Below, one piece after another: positions 21,113-46,385 of a stretch of 64,000 nucleotides of DNA; positions within the stretch are counted from its first letter, which is position 1; every line of letters starts with the position of its first letter. The position numbers and the translations under genes were made by a program. The stretch is from contig JAHHGT010000001.1 in assembly GCA_019359745.1 (NCBI GenBank), positions 124,001-188,000 of the forward strand. The letters run 5' to 3'. Source of the DNA: Aphanothece saxicola GSE-SYN-MK-01-06B (GTDB lineage: Bacteria; Cyanobacteriota; Cyanobacteriia; PCC-6307; Cyanobiaceae). The notes beneath the pieces were generated by a model. That model did not search any database and was not told the origin of the DNA. It saw only the letters and a program-made list of their open reading frames with translations.

Positions 21113-22897
21113 ATGGTCAAGCCGCCGATCATTGCTGGCATGGGATCCATGCCCTCTGCTGCCGGGGTGGCATTTCGGGTCTGGGCGCCCCATGCCGACG
21201 GGGTTTCCGTCATCGGTTCTTTCAACGATTGGGATGGTGCCGCCCATCCGATGGACCCCGAGCCGCGCGGCTTCTGGTCCATCAGGATTGAAAGTGCCAG
21301 GATCGGTGACCATTACAAGTATCAACTCTCCACGCCGTGGGGGGTGATCAAGCGCATTGATCCCTATGCCCGCGAGGTGACCAGCTCGGTGGGCAATGCC
21401 ATCATTCATGATCCTGATTTCGATTGGGATGATGATGACTTCTCCATAAAGTGCTGGAATGAGCTTGTCATCTATGAGTTGCATGTCGGCACGTTCAATG
21501 ATGATGACATCACCCAGCCAGGCCGCTTCAATTCCATCGCCGCTCGTCTGGACCATCTGAAGCGGCTGGGTATCAATGCCATTGAGATCATGCCGGTAGG
21601 TCAGTTTGCCGGCCAACGCTCCTGGGGCTACAACCCATCTCACATCTTTGCCGTCGATTCAGACTATGGCGGTTCCCTGGTCTTCAAGCGGTTCATCAAG
21701 CGTGCCCATCAAGCTGGCATCGCTGTCATCCTGGATGTGGTCTTCAATCACTTTGGCCCCAGCGACCTTGACCTCTGGAGATTCGACGGCTGGTCTGAGA
21801 ATGACAAGGGGGGAATCTATTTCTACAACGATGATCGTGCCCTGACACCCTGGGGGGAGACGCGGCCCGATTACGGCCGGGGGGAGGTTCGTCAATACAT
21901 TCTTGATAACGTGGAGATGTGGCTAAATGAGTACCACCTGGATGGCTTGCGATTTGATAGCACGGGCTACATACGCACCATTGGAGATGCCGAGACAGAA
22001 GAGATTCCCGATGGTTGGAGTCTCCTCCAGGCCATCAATGAAACCGTGGCCCGTCATGACTCTGGACGCATCACCATCGCCGAAGACCTGCGCAGCAATG
22101 ACTGGTTGACCAAGGATGTGGGGGCTGGGGGCGCGGGCTTTGACTCCCAATGGGATCCCCACTTCATCCAACCCATCCGTCAGGCCGTGATTGCGCCCAG
22201 GGATGAAGACCGCGGCCTGGAGCAGATCCGTGAGGCCATTCTTTATCGCTACAACGACGACGCCTTTGAGCGGGTGATCTACAGCGAATCCCATGATGAC
22301 GTTGCCAATGGCCAGTCCCGGATTCCCCAGGACGTCAACCCCTCGGATCCCACCGGTTGGCATGCCCAGAAGCGTTCCACCCTGGCGGCCGCGATGGTGT
22401 TCACGGCACCCGGAATTCCCATGCTGTTTCAGGGACAGGAGTTTCTCGAGGGTGGCTGGTTCCGTGACACGGTTCCCGTCGACTGGGACCAGCGCCAGGA
22501 GTTTCGCGGCATCGTGCGCCTCTACCGGGATCTGATCCACCTTCGGCTGGATCGAGAGGGCGTCTCCCATGGGCTCTGTGGTCAGTTCACCCAGGTGTTT
22601 CATGTCGATACCGATCGAGGCCTGCTGGCCTTTCACCGATGGGACCGGGGAGGGCCCGGAGATGATGTTGTCGTGATCGCCAATTTGTCTCACCAGCCCC
22701 AAGAGCACTACGTCGTGGGCTTTCCGGAGGCTGAGGCATGGAAACTTCGCTTCAACAGTGATTGGCATGGCTACAGTGAGTGCTTTGACGGCTACCCAAG
22801 CGCTGACGTCGCGGCTGTTTCAGGGGAGTGGGATGGGTTCCCCTATCACGGCTCTTTCGGTGTAGGTCCGTACAGCGTTCTGATCTATTCCCAGTGA
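21113..22897 (+). CDS. GH13 alpha-amylase-superfamily enzyme with CBM48 (branching/trehalohydrolase-like)
   Basis: A 594-residue alpha-glucan enzyme. An N-terminal CBM48-like beta domain (FRVWAPHADGVSVIGSFNDW, residues 20-100) precedes the catalytic barrel: YELHVGTF, GINAIEIMPVGQF, VILDVVFNHFGP, nucleophile Asp about 281 in LDGLRFDSTGY, acid Glu about 323 in ITIAEDLR, and YSESHDDV near 390. This layout fits branching enzymes and maltooligosyl-trehalose trehalohydrolase relatives; I cannot decide between transglycosylation and hydrolysis. It is not a typical GlgB by length. The codon use and GC are visibly lower than flanking genes, hinting at horizontal gain. A transglutaminase-like gene follows after 27 bases. 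Confidence 0.85.
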   Translation: MVKPPIIAGMGSMPSAAGVAFRVWAPHADGVSVIGSFNDWDGAAHPMDPEPRGFWSIRIESARIGDHYKYQLSTPWGVIKRIDPYAREVTSSVGNAIIHDPDFDWDDDDFSIKCWNELVIYELHVGTFNDDDITQPGRFNSIAARLDHLKRLGINAIEIMPVGQFAGQRSWGYNPSHIFAVDSDYGGSLVFKRFIKRAHQAGIAVILDVVFNHFGPSDLDLWRFDGWSENDKGGIYFYNDDRALTPWGETRPDYGRGEVRQYILDNVEMWLNEYHLDGLRFDSTGYIRTIGDAETEEIPDGWSLLQAINETVARHDSGRITIAEDLRSNDWLTKDVGAGGAGFDSQWDPHFIQPIRQAVIAPRDEDRGLEQIREAILYRYNDDAFERVIYSESHDDVANGQSRIPQDVNPSDPTGWHAQKRSTLAAAMVFTAPGIPMLFQGQEFLEGGWFRDTVPVDWDQRQEFRGIVRLYRDLIHLRLDREGVSHGLCGQFTQVFHVDTDRGLLAFHRWDRGGPGDDVVVIANLSHQPQEHYVVGFPEAEAWKLRFNSDWHGYSECFDGYPSADVAAVSGEWDGFPYHGSFGVGPYSVLIYSQ

Positions 22898-22924: not shown

Positions 22925-23806
22925 ATGAGACGCTTCAACATCCATCACCTCACCACCTACAGCTATAGCGCCCCTGTGCGACTTGGCATCCATACACTGC
23001 GTCTTCGTCCCCGAGAGGGCCACGACCTGCGCATCGAAACCTCCTCGTTGTCAATCATCCCGGCGGCAAAGCTGCGCTGGCACCGTGATGTCGAGGGCAA
23101 TTGTCTTGCCACGGTGTCGTTTCGAGAGTCTGCAGACAGATTGCTGATTGAAAGCAATTTGATCATTCAGCAATACGACCGAGTTCCTCTTGACTTCCTT
23201 GTCGATGAGGAGGCCGTCCACTATCCCTTTCAGTATGCGTCCAAGGACCGCCCCATTCTGGAGGCCTATCTCACGCCAACGGACGCTGAACAGCCCTGCC
23301 AGGCCTTGCTGCAATGGATGTCAACGGTCTGGAAGCCAGGCGAGATCATCCAGAGCTACACGTTGTTGAAGCGGCTGAATCTGGCGACCCACCAGCGTGT
23401 CTCCTACCGCAAGCGCGATGAGCCTGGCGTCCAGAGCTCCGCCGAAACGCTTCACTGCGGTTGGGGGTCCTGCCGTGACATGGCCTTTTTGTTCATGGAG
23501 GCGGCCCGGTGTTTCGGATTCGCCGCCCGTTTCGTCAGTGGTTACAGCTTCACGGCGCTGCCACCGGAGGAAGCCGGCAGCATGCATGCCTGGGCGGAGG
23601 TTTTTCTGCCGGGGGCTGGCTGGAAGGGGTTCGATCCCACCCATGCCGGCATCGTCGGCGACACCCACATCCCCGTCGCGGTGGCCCGACGGCCCGAGTC
23701 GGTGCCACCCATCGCCGGCAGCTTCGGCGGAGCTTCCCTGCTGTCGATGCAGGTGGGCGTCTGGATCACCGAGCTCCAGGGCATCAACACCCCGCTTGAG
23801 CCCTGA
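22925..23806 (+). CDS. Transglutaminase-like cysteine protease, two-domain type (first of four)
   Basis: A 293-residue protein. The N-terminal bacterial transglutaminase-like beta domain (MRRFNIHHLTTYSYSAPVRL, LRLRPREGHDLRIE) is followed by the transglutaminase core with a full triad: Cys183 in GWGSCRDMAFLF, His221 in MHAWAEVFLPG and Asp237 in GFDPTH. Such proteins are predicted peptidases or amide-bond-modifying enzymes and are often found with ATP-grasp (COG2308), alpha-E (COG2307) and Anbu genes. Here Anbu is 1.7 kb downstream. The 5' half shares the lower GC of the GH13 gene; the 3' half is GC-rich. I start at 22925; an ATG 15 bases earlier is possible. Substrate unknown. Confidence 0.88.
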   Translation: MRRFNIHHLTTYSYSAPVRLGIHTLRLRPREGHDLRIETSSLSIIPAAKLRWHRDVEGNCLATVSFRESADRLLIESNLIIQQYDRVPLDFLVDEEAVHYPFQYASKDRPILEAYLTPTDAEQPCQALLQWMSTVWKPGEIIQSYTLLKRLNLATHQRVSYRKRDEPGVQSSAETLHCGWGSCRDMAFLFMEAARCFGFAARFVSGYSFTALPPEEAGSMHAWAEVFLPGAGWKGFDPTHAGIVGDTHIPVAVARRPESVPPIAGSFGGASLLSMQVGVWITELQGINTPLEP

Positions 23807-23859
23807 CTGTCACGCGGCCGTGCTTGCCTGCCTGACCCCTTCCGATCCAGGCTGCAACA

Positions 23860-24663
23860 GTGCCCCTAGAACCTCTGCTGGGGGCCGCTGATCCGGCCGT
23901 CTTCCGGATCGTCTGTCCCACCGGTCACTCTGCCGTGCTGCTCACGGCCGACCATGCCGGCCGCGCCATTCCCCGTCGTCTGGCCAGCCTGGGCCTGAAT
24001 GAACGGGTGCTCGACACCCACGTGGCCTGGGATCTGGGCGTGGCCGGCCTGGCCCTGCAGCTGTCAGCGCGGCTCGATGCCTTCCTGATCCTGCACAACT
24101 ACTCGCGGCTGGTGGTCGATGCCAACCGGCCGCCGGACGCGCCCGATTCCATCGTCAGCCACAGCGAGGCCGCCGCCATCGCCGCCAACGCCAACCTCTC
24201 CCCGGCTGAGCGGCTGCAACGGCTCGATGAGCTTTTCCACCCCTACCACCGCCGCATCGGGGCGGAGCTGGAGGCCCGCAGCGCGCGAGGCCAGCCCAGC
24301 GTGTTGGTGACCCTGCACAGCTTCACGCCGGTGCTCGGCGCGGAGGTGCGCCCCTGGCATGTGGGGGTGCTCTACGGCCGCGATGACCGCCTGGCCCGAA
24401 GGATCCGCCTGGGGCTGGAGCGCGAGCACGGTCTGGAGGTGGGCGACAACCAGCCCTATGCCGTCAGCGACGCCAGCGACTACACGCTGGTGGTGCATGG
24501 CGAGCGGCGCCGGATTCCCCACGTGGAGCTGGAGATCCGCCAGGACCTGCTGGCTACCGAGGCCGCCCAGCAGGAGTGGGCACAGCGCCTCGCCGGTGTG
24601 CTGGAGGTGGCCCTGGCAGAGGGATTTCCGCCTCTTCAGCTTCGCCCACCGTTCTTAGGGTGA
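23860..24663 (+). CDS. N-formylglutamate amidohydrolase family protein
   Basis: A 267-residue zinc-dependent amidohydrolase-like protein of the FGase family (HutG-related, not the arginase fold). Motifs: LLTADHAGRAIPRRL (metal-binding DHAG), DTHVAWDLGV, LHNYSRLVVDANRPP, VTLHSFTPVL, HVGVLYGRDDRL and VELEIRQDLL. N-formylglutamate release is the family's reference reaction, from histidine degradation, but no hut genes are present; within a transglutaminase/Anbu cluster it may instead act on small amidated or formylated amino-acid or peptide products. The start is GTG at 23860. Only 3 bases separate it from the next gene. Confidence 0.88.
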   Translation: MPLEPLLGAADPAVFRIVCPTGHSAVLLTADHAGRAIPRRLASLGLNERVLDTHVAWDLGVAGLALQLSARLDAFLILHNYSRLVVDANRPPDAPDSIVSHSEAAAIAANANLSPAERLQRLDELFHPYHRRIGAELEARSARGQPSVLVTLHSFTPVLGAEVRPWHVGVLYGRDDRLARRIRLGLEREHGLEVGDNQPYAVSDASDYTLVVHGERRRIPHVELEIRQDLLATEAAQQEWAQRLAGVLEVALAEGFPPLQLRPPFLG

Positions 24664-24666
24664 TGC

Positions 24667-25506
24667 ATGGATTCTTTTGAACCGGCCTCGCCGCCACCGA
24701 CCCAACCCCTCGAGATCCGGGTGGGATTCGATGTGGCCCTGCGCTTCCCTGCGCCGACCCCCATGATCGTCACCATGGGGGTGCATGCCAGCCGCCACGC
24801 CGATCTGCTGGAGGCCGACCCGCTCCAGGTGGAGCCGCAGGTGCCCCTGAGCGTCTATGTGGATTCCTACGGCAACCATTGCCATCGGTTGGTGGCCCCG
24901 GCCGGCGTGCTGCGTCTGCGGAGCAGCGGTCTGGTGGCGGATTCCGGCCGTCCCGATCCGGTGTTGCCCTGGCTGGAGCAGCAGCCGGTGGAGGAGCTGC
25001 CGGAGGAGGCGCTGCTGTTTTTGCTGGCCAGCCGCTTCTGTGAGTCCGACCTGCTCTCGCCCATGGCCTGGTCGCGGTTCGACGGGGGGCCTGGGGGCTG
25101 GCGGCGGGTGCAGGCGATCTGCGATTTCGTCAACCAGCACGTGCGTTTCGATTACGGCCGTTCGAGCGCGACGAAGACCGCCCTGCAGACCTTCGAAAGC
25201 CGGGAGGGGGTGTGCCGCGACTTCGCCCACCTGGCCATTGCCCTGTGCCGCTGCATGAACATCCCGGCGCGATACTGCACCGGTTATCTGAGTGACATCG
25301 AGGTGCCGCCGCCCCACACGGCCATGGACTTCCATGCCTGGTTCGAGGCCTATCTCGGTGATGGCTGGCACGTGTTCGACCCGCGCAACAACACGCCCCG
25401 CATCGGGCGGATCCTGATCGCCAGGGGCCGGGATGCGGCGGATGTGGCGCTCACCACCACCTTCGGCCCGTCGGAGCTGGAATCGTTTCAGGTGTGGACG
25501 GCATGA
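24667..25506 (+). CDS. Transglutaminase-like cysteine protease, second type (COG1305)
   Basis: A 279-residue protein with a beta-rich N-terminal half (VGFDVALRFPAPTPMIVTMG) and a transglutaminase core: Cys183 in EGVCRDFAHLAIALC, His223 in MDFHAWFEAYL, Asp238 in HVFDPRNN. CRCMNIPARYCTGYL and RIGRILIARGRDAADVALTT are shared closely with the gene at 45558, so these two are paralogues and differ from the other subtype at 22925 and 51163. Its stop overlaps the Anbu start (ATGA), making coupled translation and a shared pathway likely. This pairing of Anbu with a transglutaminase-like gene is known from other bacteria. Confidence 0.9.
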   Translation: MDSFEPASPPPTQPLEIRVGFDVALRFPAPTPMIVTMGVHASRHADLLEADPLQVEPQVPLSVYVDSYGNHCHRLVAPAGVLRLRSSGLVADSGRPDPVLPWLEQQPVEELPEEALLFLLASRFCESDLLSPMAWSRFDGGPGGWRRVQAICDFVNQHVRFDYGRSSATKTALQTFESREGVCRDFAHLAIALCRCMNIPARYCTGYLSDIEVPPPHTAMDFHAWFEAYLGDGWHVFDPRNNTPRIGRILIARGRDAADVALTTTFGPSELESFQVWTA

Positions 25507-26231
25507 CCTATTGCGTGGCTGTGTTGCTGGAGGGCGGCATGGTGTTCGCCTCCGATTCACGCACCAATGCGGGCCTGGATGATTTCGCCAGTTTCTGCAA
25601 GATGACCGTGTTCGAGCGCAAGGGCGATCGGGTGCTCGTCTTGCTCAGCTCCGGCAGCCTGGCCGGCACCCAGGCGGTGATCGGCCTGCTGCGTCAACGG
25701 GCTGAAGCCGGCGATGGCGGCGCTTCCGTCTGGACGGCCCAGACCATGTTCGAGGTGATGGGCCTGGTGTCGGATGCGGTGCGGGCGATCGAGGAGCGCG
25801 ACGGCCCTTACCTTGAAGCGTCCGGCGCCAGTTTCAATGCGTCTTTTCTGGTGGGCGGACAAATCAAGGGCGAGGCCCCCAGGCTGTTCCGGATGTATGC
25901 CGAGGGCAACTTCATCGAAGCGGGCGAGGACACGCCCTTCCTGCAAACGGGGGAGGCGAAGTATGGAAAACCGATCATCGACCGGGTGATCCATTCCGAC
26001 ACGACACTGGCAGAAACGGCCAAGTGTGTGTTGGTGTCGTTCGACTCCACCATGCGCAGCAACCTGTCGGTCGGGATGCCGATCGACCTGCTCCTCTACG
26101 AGCGGGATCGCCTCGAGATCACCCAGCGGCGTCGATTCAGCGAGGGTGATGCCTACTTCAAGGAACTCAGCCGGGAATGGAGCGCGGGCGTGCGGCAGGT
26201 GTTCCGGGAATTGCCGGAGCTGGTCTGGTAG
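25503..26231 (+). CDS. Anbu, ancestral beta-subunit proteasome-like peptidase
   Basis: Anbu is a bacterial Ntn-hydrolase of the 20S proteasome/HslV superfamily. The 242-residue product starts MTYCVAVLLEGGMVFASDSR; removal of Met would expose Thr as the catalytic N-terminus, with Asp and Lys of the proteasome active site at D18 and K33 of the precursor (FASDSRTN, FCKMTVFE). VLLSSGSLAGTQAVIG and LVSFDSTMRSNLSVGMPIDL are family segments. The start at 25503 is fixed by this N-terminus and the ATGA overlap with the transglutaminase gene. In other bacteria Anbu travels with transglutaminase, alpha-E and ATP-grasp genes; the latter two are not in this window. Natural substrates are unknown. Confidence 0.93.
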   Translation: MTYCVAVLLEGGMVFASDSRTNAGLDDFASFCKMTVFERKGDRVLVLLSSGSLAGTQAVIGLLRQRAEAGDGGASVWTAQTMFEVMGLVSDAVRAIEERDGPYLEASGASFNASFLVGGQIKGEAPRLFRMYAEGNFIEAGEDTPFLQTGEAKYGKPIIDRVIHSDTTLAETAKCVLVSFDSTMRSNLSVGMPIDLLLYERDRLEITQRRRFSEGDAYFKELSREWSAGVRQVFRELPELVW

Positions 26232-26857
26232 GCGACATCCCGCGGCATAGCCGGCCGGCCCCTTCGCCGCCGCTGGTGCTGATCCACGGCATGTGGGACA
26301 CCCCCGCGGTGTTCGACCCCCTCCGACTGGAGCTGGCGGGACGCCGCGGACCCCTGCTGATCCCGCACCTGCCCCATCGCTTTGGCCTCACGCCCATCAC
26401 CGTGCAGGCCGCCCTGCTCGGCAGCCACATCGACGACTGCTTCGGTCCGGAGCAACCCATCGATCTGCTCGGCTTCTCCATGGGAGGGGTGATCGCCCGC
26501 ACCTGGATCCAGCTGCTCGGCGGCCATCGGCGCACCCGGCGCCTGATCAGCGTCGGCAGCCCCCAACAAGGCACCCTCACAGCCGGGCCCTGGCCCCGCT
26601 GGCCCCTGGCCGGCATCGCTGACCTGAAAACGGGCAGCCAGCTGCTGCAACGGCTCAACGCCAACCTCACCACCCTGCAGATGGTTGATTGCTGCAGCTT
26701 TTACTGCGAGCCGGATCTGATGGTGGTGCCGGCCTGGCGGGCCGTGCTGCCGATCGGTCCGGGCAAGAACCTGCCGGTGCGTTATCACCATCAACTCCTG
26801 ACCCACCCGGGGGCGCTGCAACCCCTGGTGATGGAGCTGCTGCGGTCTGAGCCGTGA
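26177..26857 (+). CDS. Alpha/beta-hydrolase, lipase/esterase-like
   Basis: An alpha/beta-hydrolase of about 210-226 residues. LVLIHGMWDTPAVFDPL holds the oxyanion His-Gly, GFSMGGVIAR the nucleophile Ser, and YHHQLLTHP near the C-terminus the likely catalytic His; an Asp in CEPDLMVVP is the probable acid. It resembles EstA/lipase-type triacylglycerol hydrolases (VGSPQQGT block). The first in-frame ATG (26177) overlaps the Anbu gene by 55 bases; a CTG at 26225 is an alternative. No signal peptide is evident, so it is probably cytoplasmic. It is the last gene of the cluster. Confidence 0.8.
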   Translation: MERGRAAGVPGIAGAGLVGDIPRHSRPAPSPPLVLIHGMWDTPAVFDPLRLELAGRRGPLLIPHLPHRFGLTPITVQAALLGSHIDDCFGPEQPIDLLGFSMGGVIARTWIQLLGGHRRTRRLISVGSPQQGTLTAGPWPRWPLAGIADLKTGSQLLQRLNANLTTLQMVDCCSFYCEPDLMVVPAWRAVLPIGPGKNLPVRYHHQLLTHPGALQPLVMELLRSEP

Positions 26858-45557: not shown

Positions 45558-46385
45558 ATGCTGATCCGGCTCGGTTGCGAACTGACCCTCTCCTGCTGGG
45601 CCCCGACGCCGGTGCTGGCCCTGGTCCATCCCCATGGCAGCCGCCTGGAGGATCGGCGCGGCCCGGAGCGGTTGTGGCTGAGTCCGGACCGCATCGCCGA
45701 GGTGCTCACCGACGCCGACGGCAACCGTGCCTGCCGCTTCATGGCCTCTGCCGGCAGCACCACCCTGGGCTTCGAGGTGGTGGTGGCCGATGGCGGCCAT
45801 CCCGATCCGGTGGCAGCAGACGTGGGTGAGTGCCCGGTGGCGGCGCTGCCGATCGTCACCTATCCCTATCTCAACCCCAGCCGCTACTGCGACACCGATC
45901 GTCTGGCCCAGGTGGCCTGGGGGCGCTTCGGTGGGGTCCGGCCCGGCTGGTCGCGGGTGCAGGCGATCTGCGACTGGGTGCATGAGCAGCTCCGCTTCGA
46001 CTACGGCTCCGCCCGCAGCGACAAGACCGCCCACGACGCCCTGCGGGAGGGCCGCGGCGTCTGCCGGGATTTCGCCCACCTGGCCATCAGCCTCTGCCGT
46101 TGCCTCAACATTCCGGCGCGTTACTGCACCGGCTATCTGGGCTATTCGGGCGTCGAGGCCCGGCCGGATCCGATCGACTACTCCGCCTGGTTCGAGGCGT
46201 TCCTCGAGGATCGCTGGCATGTCTTTGATGCCCGCTACAACACCCCCCGCATCGGCCGGGTGCTGATCGCCCGGGGCCGGGACGCGGCGGATGTGCCCTT
46301 CCTGCGCTCCTTCGGCGATCACCAGCTCACCGGGTTCCGGGTCATCACCGAGGCGTTGGCCCCCTCCGAAAGCGCCCCCCGCTGA
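45558..46385 (+). CDS. Transglutaminase-like protein, paralogue of 24667, catalytic His replaced by Ser
   Basis: A 275-residue protein of the same subfamily as the one at 24667: GRGVCRDFAHLAISLCRCLN, IPARYCTGYLGYSGVEARPD, TPRIGRVLIARGRDAADVPF. The nucleophile Cys169 is present, and Asp224 in VFDARYN, but the usual HAWFE is YSAWFEAF, with Ser209 at the His position, and the DP turn is DA. It may be inactive, use another His, or have a changed reaction; some relatives share this change. The start at 45558 gives an N-terminus comparable to the paralogue. No partner gene adjoins it. Confidence 0.85.
   Translation: MLIRLGCELTLSCWAPTPVLALVHPHGSRLEDRRGPERLWLSPDRIAEVLTDADGNRACRFMASAGSTTLGFEVVVADGGHPDPVAADVGECPVAALPIVTYPYLNPSRYCDTDRLAQVAWGRFGGVRPGWSRVQAICDWVHEQLRFDYGSARSDKTAHDALREGRGVCRDFAHLAISLCRCLNIPARYCTGYLGYSGVEARPDPIDYSAWFEAFLEDRWHVFDARYNTPRIGRVLIARGRDAADVPFLRSFGDHQLTGFRVITEALAPSESAPR

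Follow-up and report, generated by a model that had tools for sequence, protein, structure and literature searches.

What does a proteasome-like Anbu peptidase do in a gene neighbourhood that lacks its usual ligase partners? We addressed this question in a window of 64,000 nucleotides from Aphanothece saxicola GSE-SYN-MK-01-06B, the whole stretch of DNA that was analysed (C11:124001-188000 of the source genome, which is 3.25 Mb in size and 99.99% complete). Anbu is widespread and structurally solved and is still without a substrate. The classical Anbu operon comprises an ATP-grasp gene (COG2308), an alpha-E gene (COG2307), a transglutaminase gene and Anbu (Iyer et al. 2009, as cited in passages of PMC5666114 and PMC6376114), and this ligase operon prompted a tagging hypothesis. 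In the window, Anbu is encoded behind a zinc amidohydrolase that resembles N-formylglutamate amidohydrolase (FGase) and a transglutaminase-like enzyme (TG2). We observed this gene content together with its conservation, the co-occurrence of the genes, a separate ancestry and intact active-site residues, and we conclude that FGase-TG2-Anbu represents a real variant of the Anbu neighbourhood, whose genes are inherited together and which lacks the ligase partners. The unit is conserved in some freshwater cyanobacteria and points to the breakdown of glutamyl-linked peptides, and such cassettes, being small and free of ligases, are suited to a search for the substrate of Anbu.

The three core genes follow one another on the forward strand. 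The first (23860..24663) encodes the FGase-like zinc amidohydrolase of the PF05013/Atu2144 type, the second (24667..25506) encodes TG2, a transglutaminase-like cysteine hydrolase (Transglut_core E 3.7e-24), and the third (25503..26231) encodes a proteasome-like N-terminal nucleophile (Ntn) hydrolase of the Anbu-1 type. Between the FGase stop codon and the start of TG2 lie 3 bp. TG2 ends in ...GCATGA and Anbu starts at 25503 with that ATG; the ATGA overlap described in an earlier note on this DNA is therefore real. The same note listed five genes on one strand, namely these three, a further transglutaminase (TG1) and a lipase-like hydrolase. Pfam confirmed all five, and for FGase, TG2 and Anbu there are relatives of solved structure as well. 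Neither an ATP-grasp nor an alpha-E gene was found beside the cassette, as the note had remarked. Purifying selection acts on all five genes and is strongest for Anbu (median dN/dS of 0.09, with 0.14 for TG1, 0.17 for TG2, 0.19 for the lipase-like gene and 0.31 for FGase).

Is this arrangement more than an accident of one genome? We surveyed 150 genomes of the order, 291 genomes of the class and, for gene order, 26 named Cyanobiaceae loci, and an Anbu was counted as orthologous (cassette type) at 71% identity or more. FGase was present in 23 of the 150 genomes, with one truncated copy (G141). Orthologous Anbu was present in 24, comprising all 23 genomes with FGase and 1 of the remaining 127 (Fisher p 3e-26, or 3e-15 for genomes of at least 2.6 Mb only; neither p-value is corrected for relatedness). 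On an ATP-grasp plus alpha-E tree, FGase and Anbu changed in step at 3 of 3-4 independent places and in opposite directions at none, a co-change that is suggestive, although the independent-pairs test, one-sided in outcome, is underpowered with so few events. TG2 was located directly 3′ of FGase, within 165 bp, at 25 of the 26 loci, and Anbu came next at 20 of them. The earlier note had proposed that the cluster would be accidental if FGase and transglutaminase genes were never near Anbu in related genomes; the association is real and conserved, and the cluster is therefore not accidental. In the genus g17, FGase-TG2 and Anbu occupy separate loci, all three genes are kept in 5 of 6 genomes, and the surroundings of Anbu match those that hold the whole cassette in a g15 genome (G059, L056). 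Across the class, FGase was found in 2 of 291 genomes, both from the genus of the window, and Anbu was found in 178. Farther afield, a Binatia metagenome-assembled genome (MAG) has the identical FGase-TG2-Anbu order, which rests on one MAG contig, and among gammaproteobacteria, Xanthomonadales included, FGase-TG2 pairs are also found without Anbu (within 5 kb, 10 of 47 loci).

Where did the Anbu of the cassette come from? The protein matches the solved Anbus (E 2.5e-90 to the designed 5LOY, 2.3e-81 to the natural 5NYJ and 5.2e-71 to 5LOX) and scores weakly against the Pfam Proteasome model. According to passages of PMC6376114, the catalytic signature of Anbu consists of Thr1, Asp17 and Lys32/33 without a propeptide. 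In the window protein, Thr directly follows the start Met, and T1, D17 and K32 are invariant in 18 cassette Anbus. Passages of PMC5666114 describe an Anbu-1 S1 pocket of T20, F30, T48, L52 and S55, a basic Anbu-2 pocket and the binding of proteasome inhibitors by Anbu-1. By position count, the window protein has T20, F30, S48, L52 and T55, which matches the Anbu-1 type described in those passages with two conservative swaps.

The genome contains three Anbu genes, on C11 (the cassette), C2 and C6. In a quick tree that includes some long branches and rows, the cassette Anbus and the one from the Binatia MAG form a clade (support 100) that nests with Anbus of proteobacteria, almost all of which belong to ATP-grasp/alpha-E operons (SH-aLRT 97). 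The remaining cyanobacterial Anbus make up a clade of their own (support 99). A vertically inherited cyanobacterial Anbu was rejected as the source of the cassette gene, which groups with the proteobacterial operon Anbus. Judging from the tree, the cassette Anbu was probably acquired horizontally and then re-partnered; the simplest history would be that an already existing FGase-TG2 pair gained an operon-type Anbu, probably from a proteobacterial ligase operon. The C2 paralogue has a neighbour of its own (L004:8853-10616): a glutaminase gene (PF04960, E 8e-102) lies 16 bp downstream, and the two genes stay together at each of the 7 loci sampled in the family. A single genome thus has two Anbu lineages beside different hydrolases of glutamate/glutamine (Glx) amides. 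A search that reached a limited share of the literature, without Iyer et al. 2009, found none joining FGase with Anbu, and the passages of the Anbu papers are silent on both the FGase-TG2-Anbu and the Anbu-glutaminase arrangements.

What activity does the FGase-like protein bring to the cassette? It scored 155.8 bits against PF05013 (gathering score 28.9; E 2.5e-45). Residues H32, H54, D58, D87-x-N89-R90, H153 and E225 are invariant in sets of 28 and 38 homologues and are also kept in plasmid-borne homologues at 41-45% identity. The DxNR motif presumably holds the substrate carboxylate, as we reason from the related carboxypeptidase/aspartoacylase enzymes. The nearest structure to a model of the protein (predicted local distance difference test, pLDDT, 88) was Atu2144 (2ODF; Z 34.8, 34% identity), which shares all predicted catalytic motifs. 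It was followed by the PF05013 protein 2Q7S (Z 21.9) and by two poly-gamma-glutamate hydrolases, the phage enzyme 3A9L (Z 13.4) and YndL (5ONJ, Z 12.8). The latter have the zinc-peptidase fold in common with the FGase-like protein (Z about 13), but at 13% identity the likeness is confined to the fold. Zinc carboxypeptidases and the deglutamylase CCP5 came later in the match list, among peptidoglycan amidases. The modelled fold is compatible with the suggestion of the earlier note that this enzyme could trim a terminal amino acid.

By its Pfam family, PF05013, the protein could be a common N-formylglutamate deformylase from histidine degradation that lies in this neighbourhood by accident. Nevertheless, we consider this explanation highly improbable. 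The protein reached 29 bits against TIGR02017 (HutG), whose cut-off is 278.75, and a HutG identity was rejected; its closest relative is the uncharacterised Atu2144, no other hut-type gene was seen beside FGase, and the linkage to TG2 and Anbu is conserved. FGase homologues were also seen on plasmids of Shinella, Klebsiella, Roseomonas and Nitratireductor (L213, L214, L215 and L218). Around these homologues, a ligase resembling glutamine synthetase, a hydrolase of the isochorismatase type and regulators of the MurR type recur as conserved groups, and such neighbours point to glutamyl-amide chemistry.

Is TG2 the transglutaminase of the classical operon under another name? TG1 (22925..23806, forward strand) is a canonical transglutaminase with Bact_transglu_N and Transglut_core domains and a C183/H221/D237 triad. 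TG2 carries the corresponding C183/H223/D238 triad and gave no Pfam match to Bact_transglu_N. It shares 31% identity with the transglutaminase of a Klebsiella operon (over 204 aa), versus 56-58% with FGase-linked transglutaminases. Judged by sequence, TG2 is not the transglutaminase of the classical Anbu operon and belongs to another subfamily. This subfamily retains Cys183, His188 and Asp238, but of its 61 rows 47 carry Ser or Ala in place of His223. One of these 47 is a second TG2-type gene of the window (45558..46385, forward strand), whose product, by sequence comparison, is 49% identical to TG2 and has Ser instead of the catalytic His. His is present in the other 14 rows, which comprise the clade of the genus of the window and two solitary g17 copies. 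Tree parsimony favours a loss and subsequent regain of the catalytic His in TG2, with multiple independent losses as a possible alternative. The closest solved relative, the transglutaminase-like putative cysteine protease 3ISR (E 1.4e-39), keeps the His, whereas most of the subfamily has Ser or Ala there. Inside 30 kb of the window, four transglutaminase-superfamily genes were seen (at 22925, 24667, 45558 and 51163), which fall into two subfamilies, with and without Bact_transglu_N.

The His-replaced TG2-type subfamily spans several classes. Its relatives on proteobacterial plasmids (L281-L288) have Ala at the His223 position in seven of eight cases and Ser in one, and in four of the eight (Methylocapsa, Roseovarius, Caballeronia and Kozakia) a canonical TG1-type gene lies within about 1.5 kb of the TG2-type gene. 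TG1 adjoins FGase only in the genus of the window; since TG1-type genes pair with TG2-type genes in proteobacteria, TG1 may be a genuine partner and a possible accessory member of the cassette. On a Kozakia baliensis plasmid (L287:2984-7774), a TG1-type gene, a His-less TG2-type gene, an ATP-grasp gene and an alpha-E gene stand in a row, and this row links the TG2 subfamily with the classical system.

What, then, became of the ligases? The classical operon resembles the cassette in its Anbu lineage and in the transglutaminase-superfamily gene directly before Anbu, but it has ATP-grasp and alpha-E where the cassette has the FGase-like gene, and its transglutaminase is of the other subfamily. 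On contig C1 of the source genome, its single alpha-E gene lies next to its single circularly permuted ATP-grasp gene, and another transglutaminase gene overlaps alpha-E; this trio is intact. Both alpha-E and ATP-grasp were found there; therefore, of the two fates that the earlier note had allowed for the ligase part, elsewhere or lost, the first holds and the second does not. The order ATP-grasp/alpha-E/transglutaminase was found in 41 of 41 Cyanobiaceae genomes inspected for it.

This trio raises the idea of a split tagging system, in which the resident trio builds a peptide or tag and the cassette serves as the removal arm. Trio and cassette are both present in the source genome, the same Anbu lineage elsewhere shares an operon with ATP-grasp and alpha-E, and in Kozakia the TG2-type and TG1-type genes directly precede these two. 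However, alpha-E is present in 129 of the 150 genomes of the order, mostly without any Anbu, and genomes with FGase are not significantly enriched for it (22/23 versus 107/127, p 0.13). Moreover, the cassette occurs without alpha-E and without ATP-grasp in G010, although this genome is a draft MAG. Because the trio is near-universal without Anbu and G010 has the cassette without the trio, the trio has not emerged as the missing half of the cassette, and we found no support for the proposal of the earlier note of a single local system that keeps its degradative half at the cassette and has its ligase half relocated. The trio and the cassette may be linked in function; we regard a split tagging system as rather unlikely.

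We tentatively propose that the cassette forms a hydrolytic unit that acts on (iso)peptides of the glutamyl type, with its products working in turn on a common pool. The FGase, TG2 and Anbu genes appear to be set out for coupled translation. The pool would consist of peptides or isopeptides with glutamate/glutamine or N-acyl-amino-acid bonds. Anbu, as an Ntn peptidase, would make an internal cut, TG2 would act as a thiol hydrolase or transferase at a glutaminyl or gamma-glutamyl bond, and the FGase-like zinc enzyme would release a terminal amino acid whose carboxylate is held by the DxNR motif. The outcome would be the salvage of nitrogen and amino acids or the removal of a peptide modification (tag), and the cassette would operate without an adjacent ATP-grasp/alpha-E ligase. 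We infer that the three enzymes share a substrate, act in this order and work in the direction of hydrolysis. A glutamyl-type substrate is favoured because the FGase fold nears that of poly-gamma-glutamate hydrolases, the C2 Anbu pairs with a glutaminase, and the Anbu of Pseudomonas putida is induced under nitrogen limitation (as given in passages of PMC5666114). An Anbu cassette in which a zinc amidohydrolase and a transglutaminase-like enzyme replace the ligases, together with the Anbu-glutaminase pair, narrows the chemistry to glutamyl/glutaminyl bonds. We further speculate, with considerable doubt, that Anbu serves chiefly in the hydrolysis of glutamate/glutamine bonds and is joined to different Glx-amide hydrolases in each lineage (FGase-TG2 in the cassette and glutaminase for the C2 Anbu), that the ligase operon is one of several settings, and that the catalytic His of the cassette TG2 was regained.

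Several points weigh against a hydrolytic unit of this kind. A fold in common does not establish a function, and TG2 may not be a classical hydrolase, because most of its relatives are without the catalytic His. As reported in passages of PMC6376114, none of the standard proteasome peptides was cut by published Anbus. The 3-4 independent gain/loss events of FGase and Anbu fall short of the number required for significance, and the window contains 0 NtcA-type sites (GTA-N8-TAC), with 0.4 expected by chance. Additionally, the unit is incomplete in some relatives. SynAce01 (G069) has FGase directly before Anbu and no orthologous TG2, G073 has kept Anbu beside nothing more than a 76-codon remnant of TG2, and in G141 (L058) both FGase and TG2 are truncated, with the shortened FGase joined to the end of TG2, a decay in place that left Anbu intact. 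The persistence of Anbu in G073 and G141 would suit two unrelated functions on one transcript, with FGase-TG2 acting on small N-acyl or gamma-glutamyl compounds and Anbu acting as a general protease, as would the Anbu-free FGase-TG2 pairs of Xanthomonadales and the glutamine-synthetase-like ligases and isochorismatase-type hydrolases beside the plasmid homologues. However, FGase and the cassette Anbu co-occur near-perfectly, even where they are unlinked, and we consider such a division of functions unlikely.

The remaining neighbours are variable. Across the 26 Cyanobiaceae loci, the presence of TG1, of a gene for a glucan-branching-type enzyme of family GH13 (21113..22897, forward strand; Pfam/NCBIfam) and of the lipase-like gene differs from locus to locus. 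The lipase-like gene, an alpha/beta hydrolase (26276..26857, forward strand; Abhydrolase_6 E 1.3e-07) whose start is uncertain, with an open frame reaching to 26177, accompanies 10 of the 22 FGase loci in relatives and is absent where FGase-TG2-Anbu has other surroundings. The GH13 gene is absent at several cassette loci. Both are lineage-specific neighbours only, contrary to the inclusion of the lipase-like hydrolase in the cluster by the earlier note. No sigma-70-like promoters were found at the cluster, and terminator-like matches were near chance level. The GC content is 58% in the GH13 gene, 61% in TG1 and 67% in the cassette.

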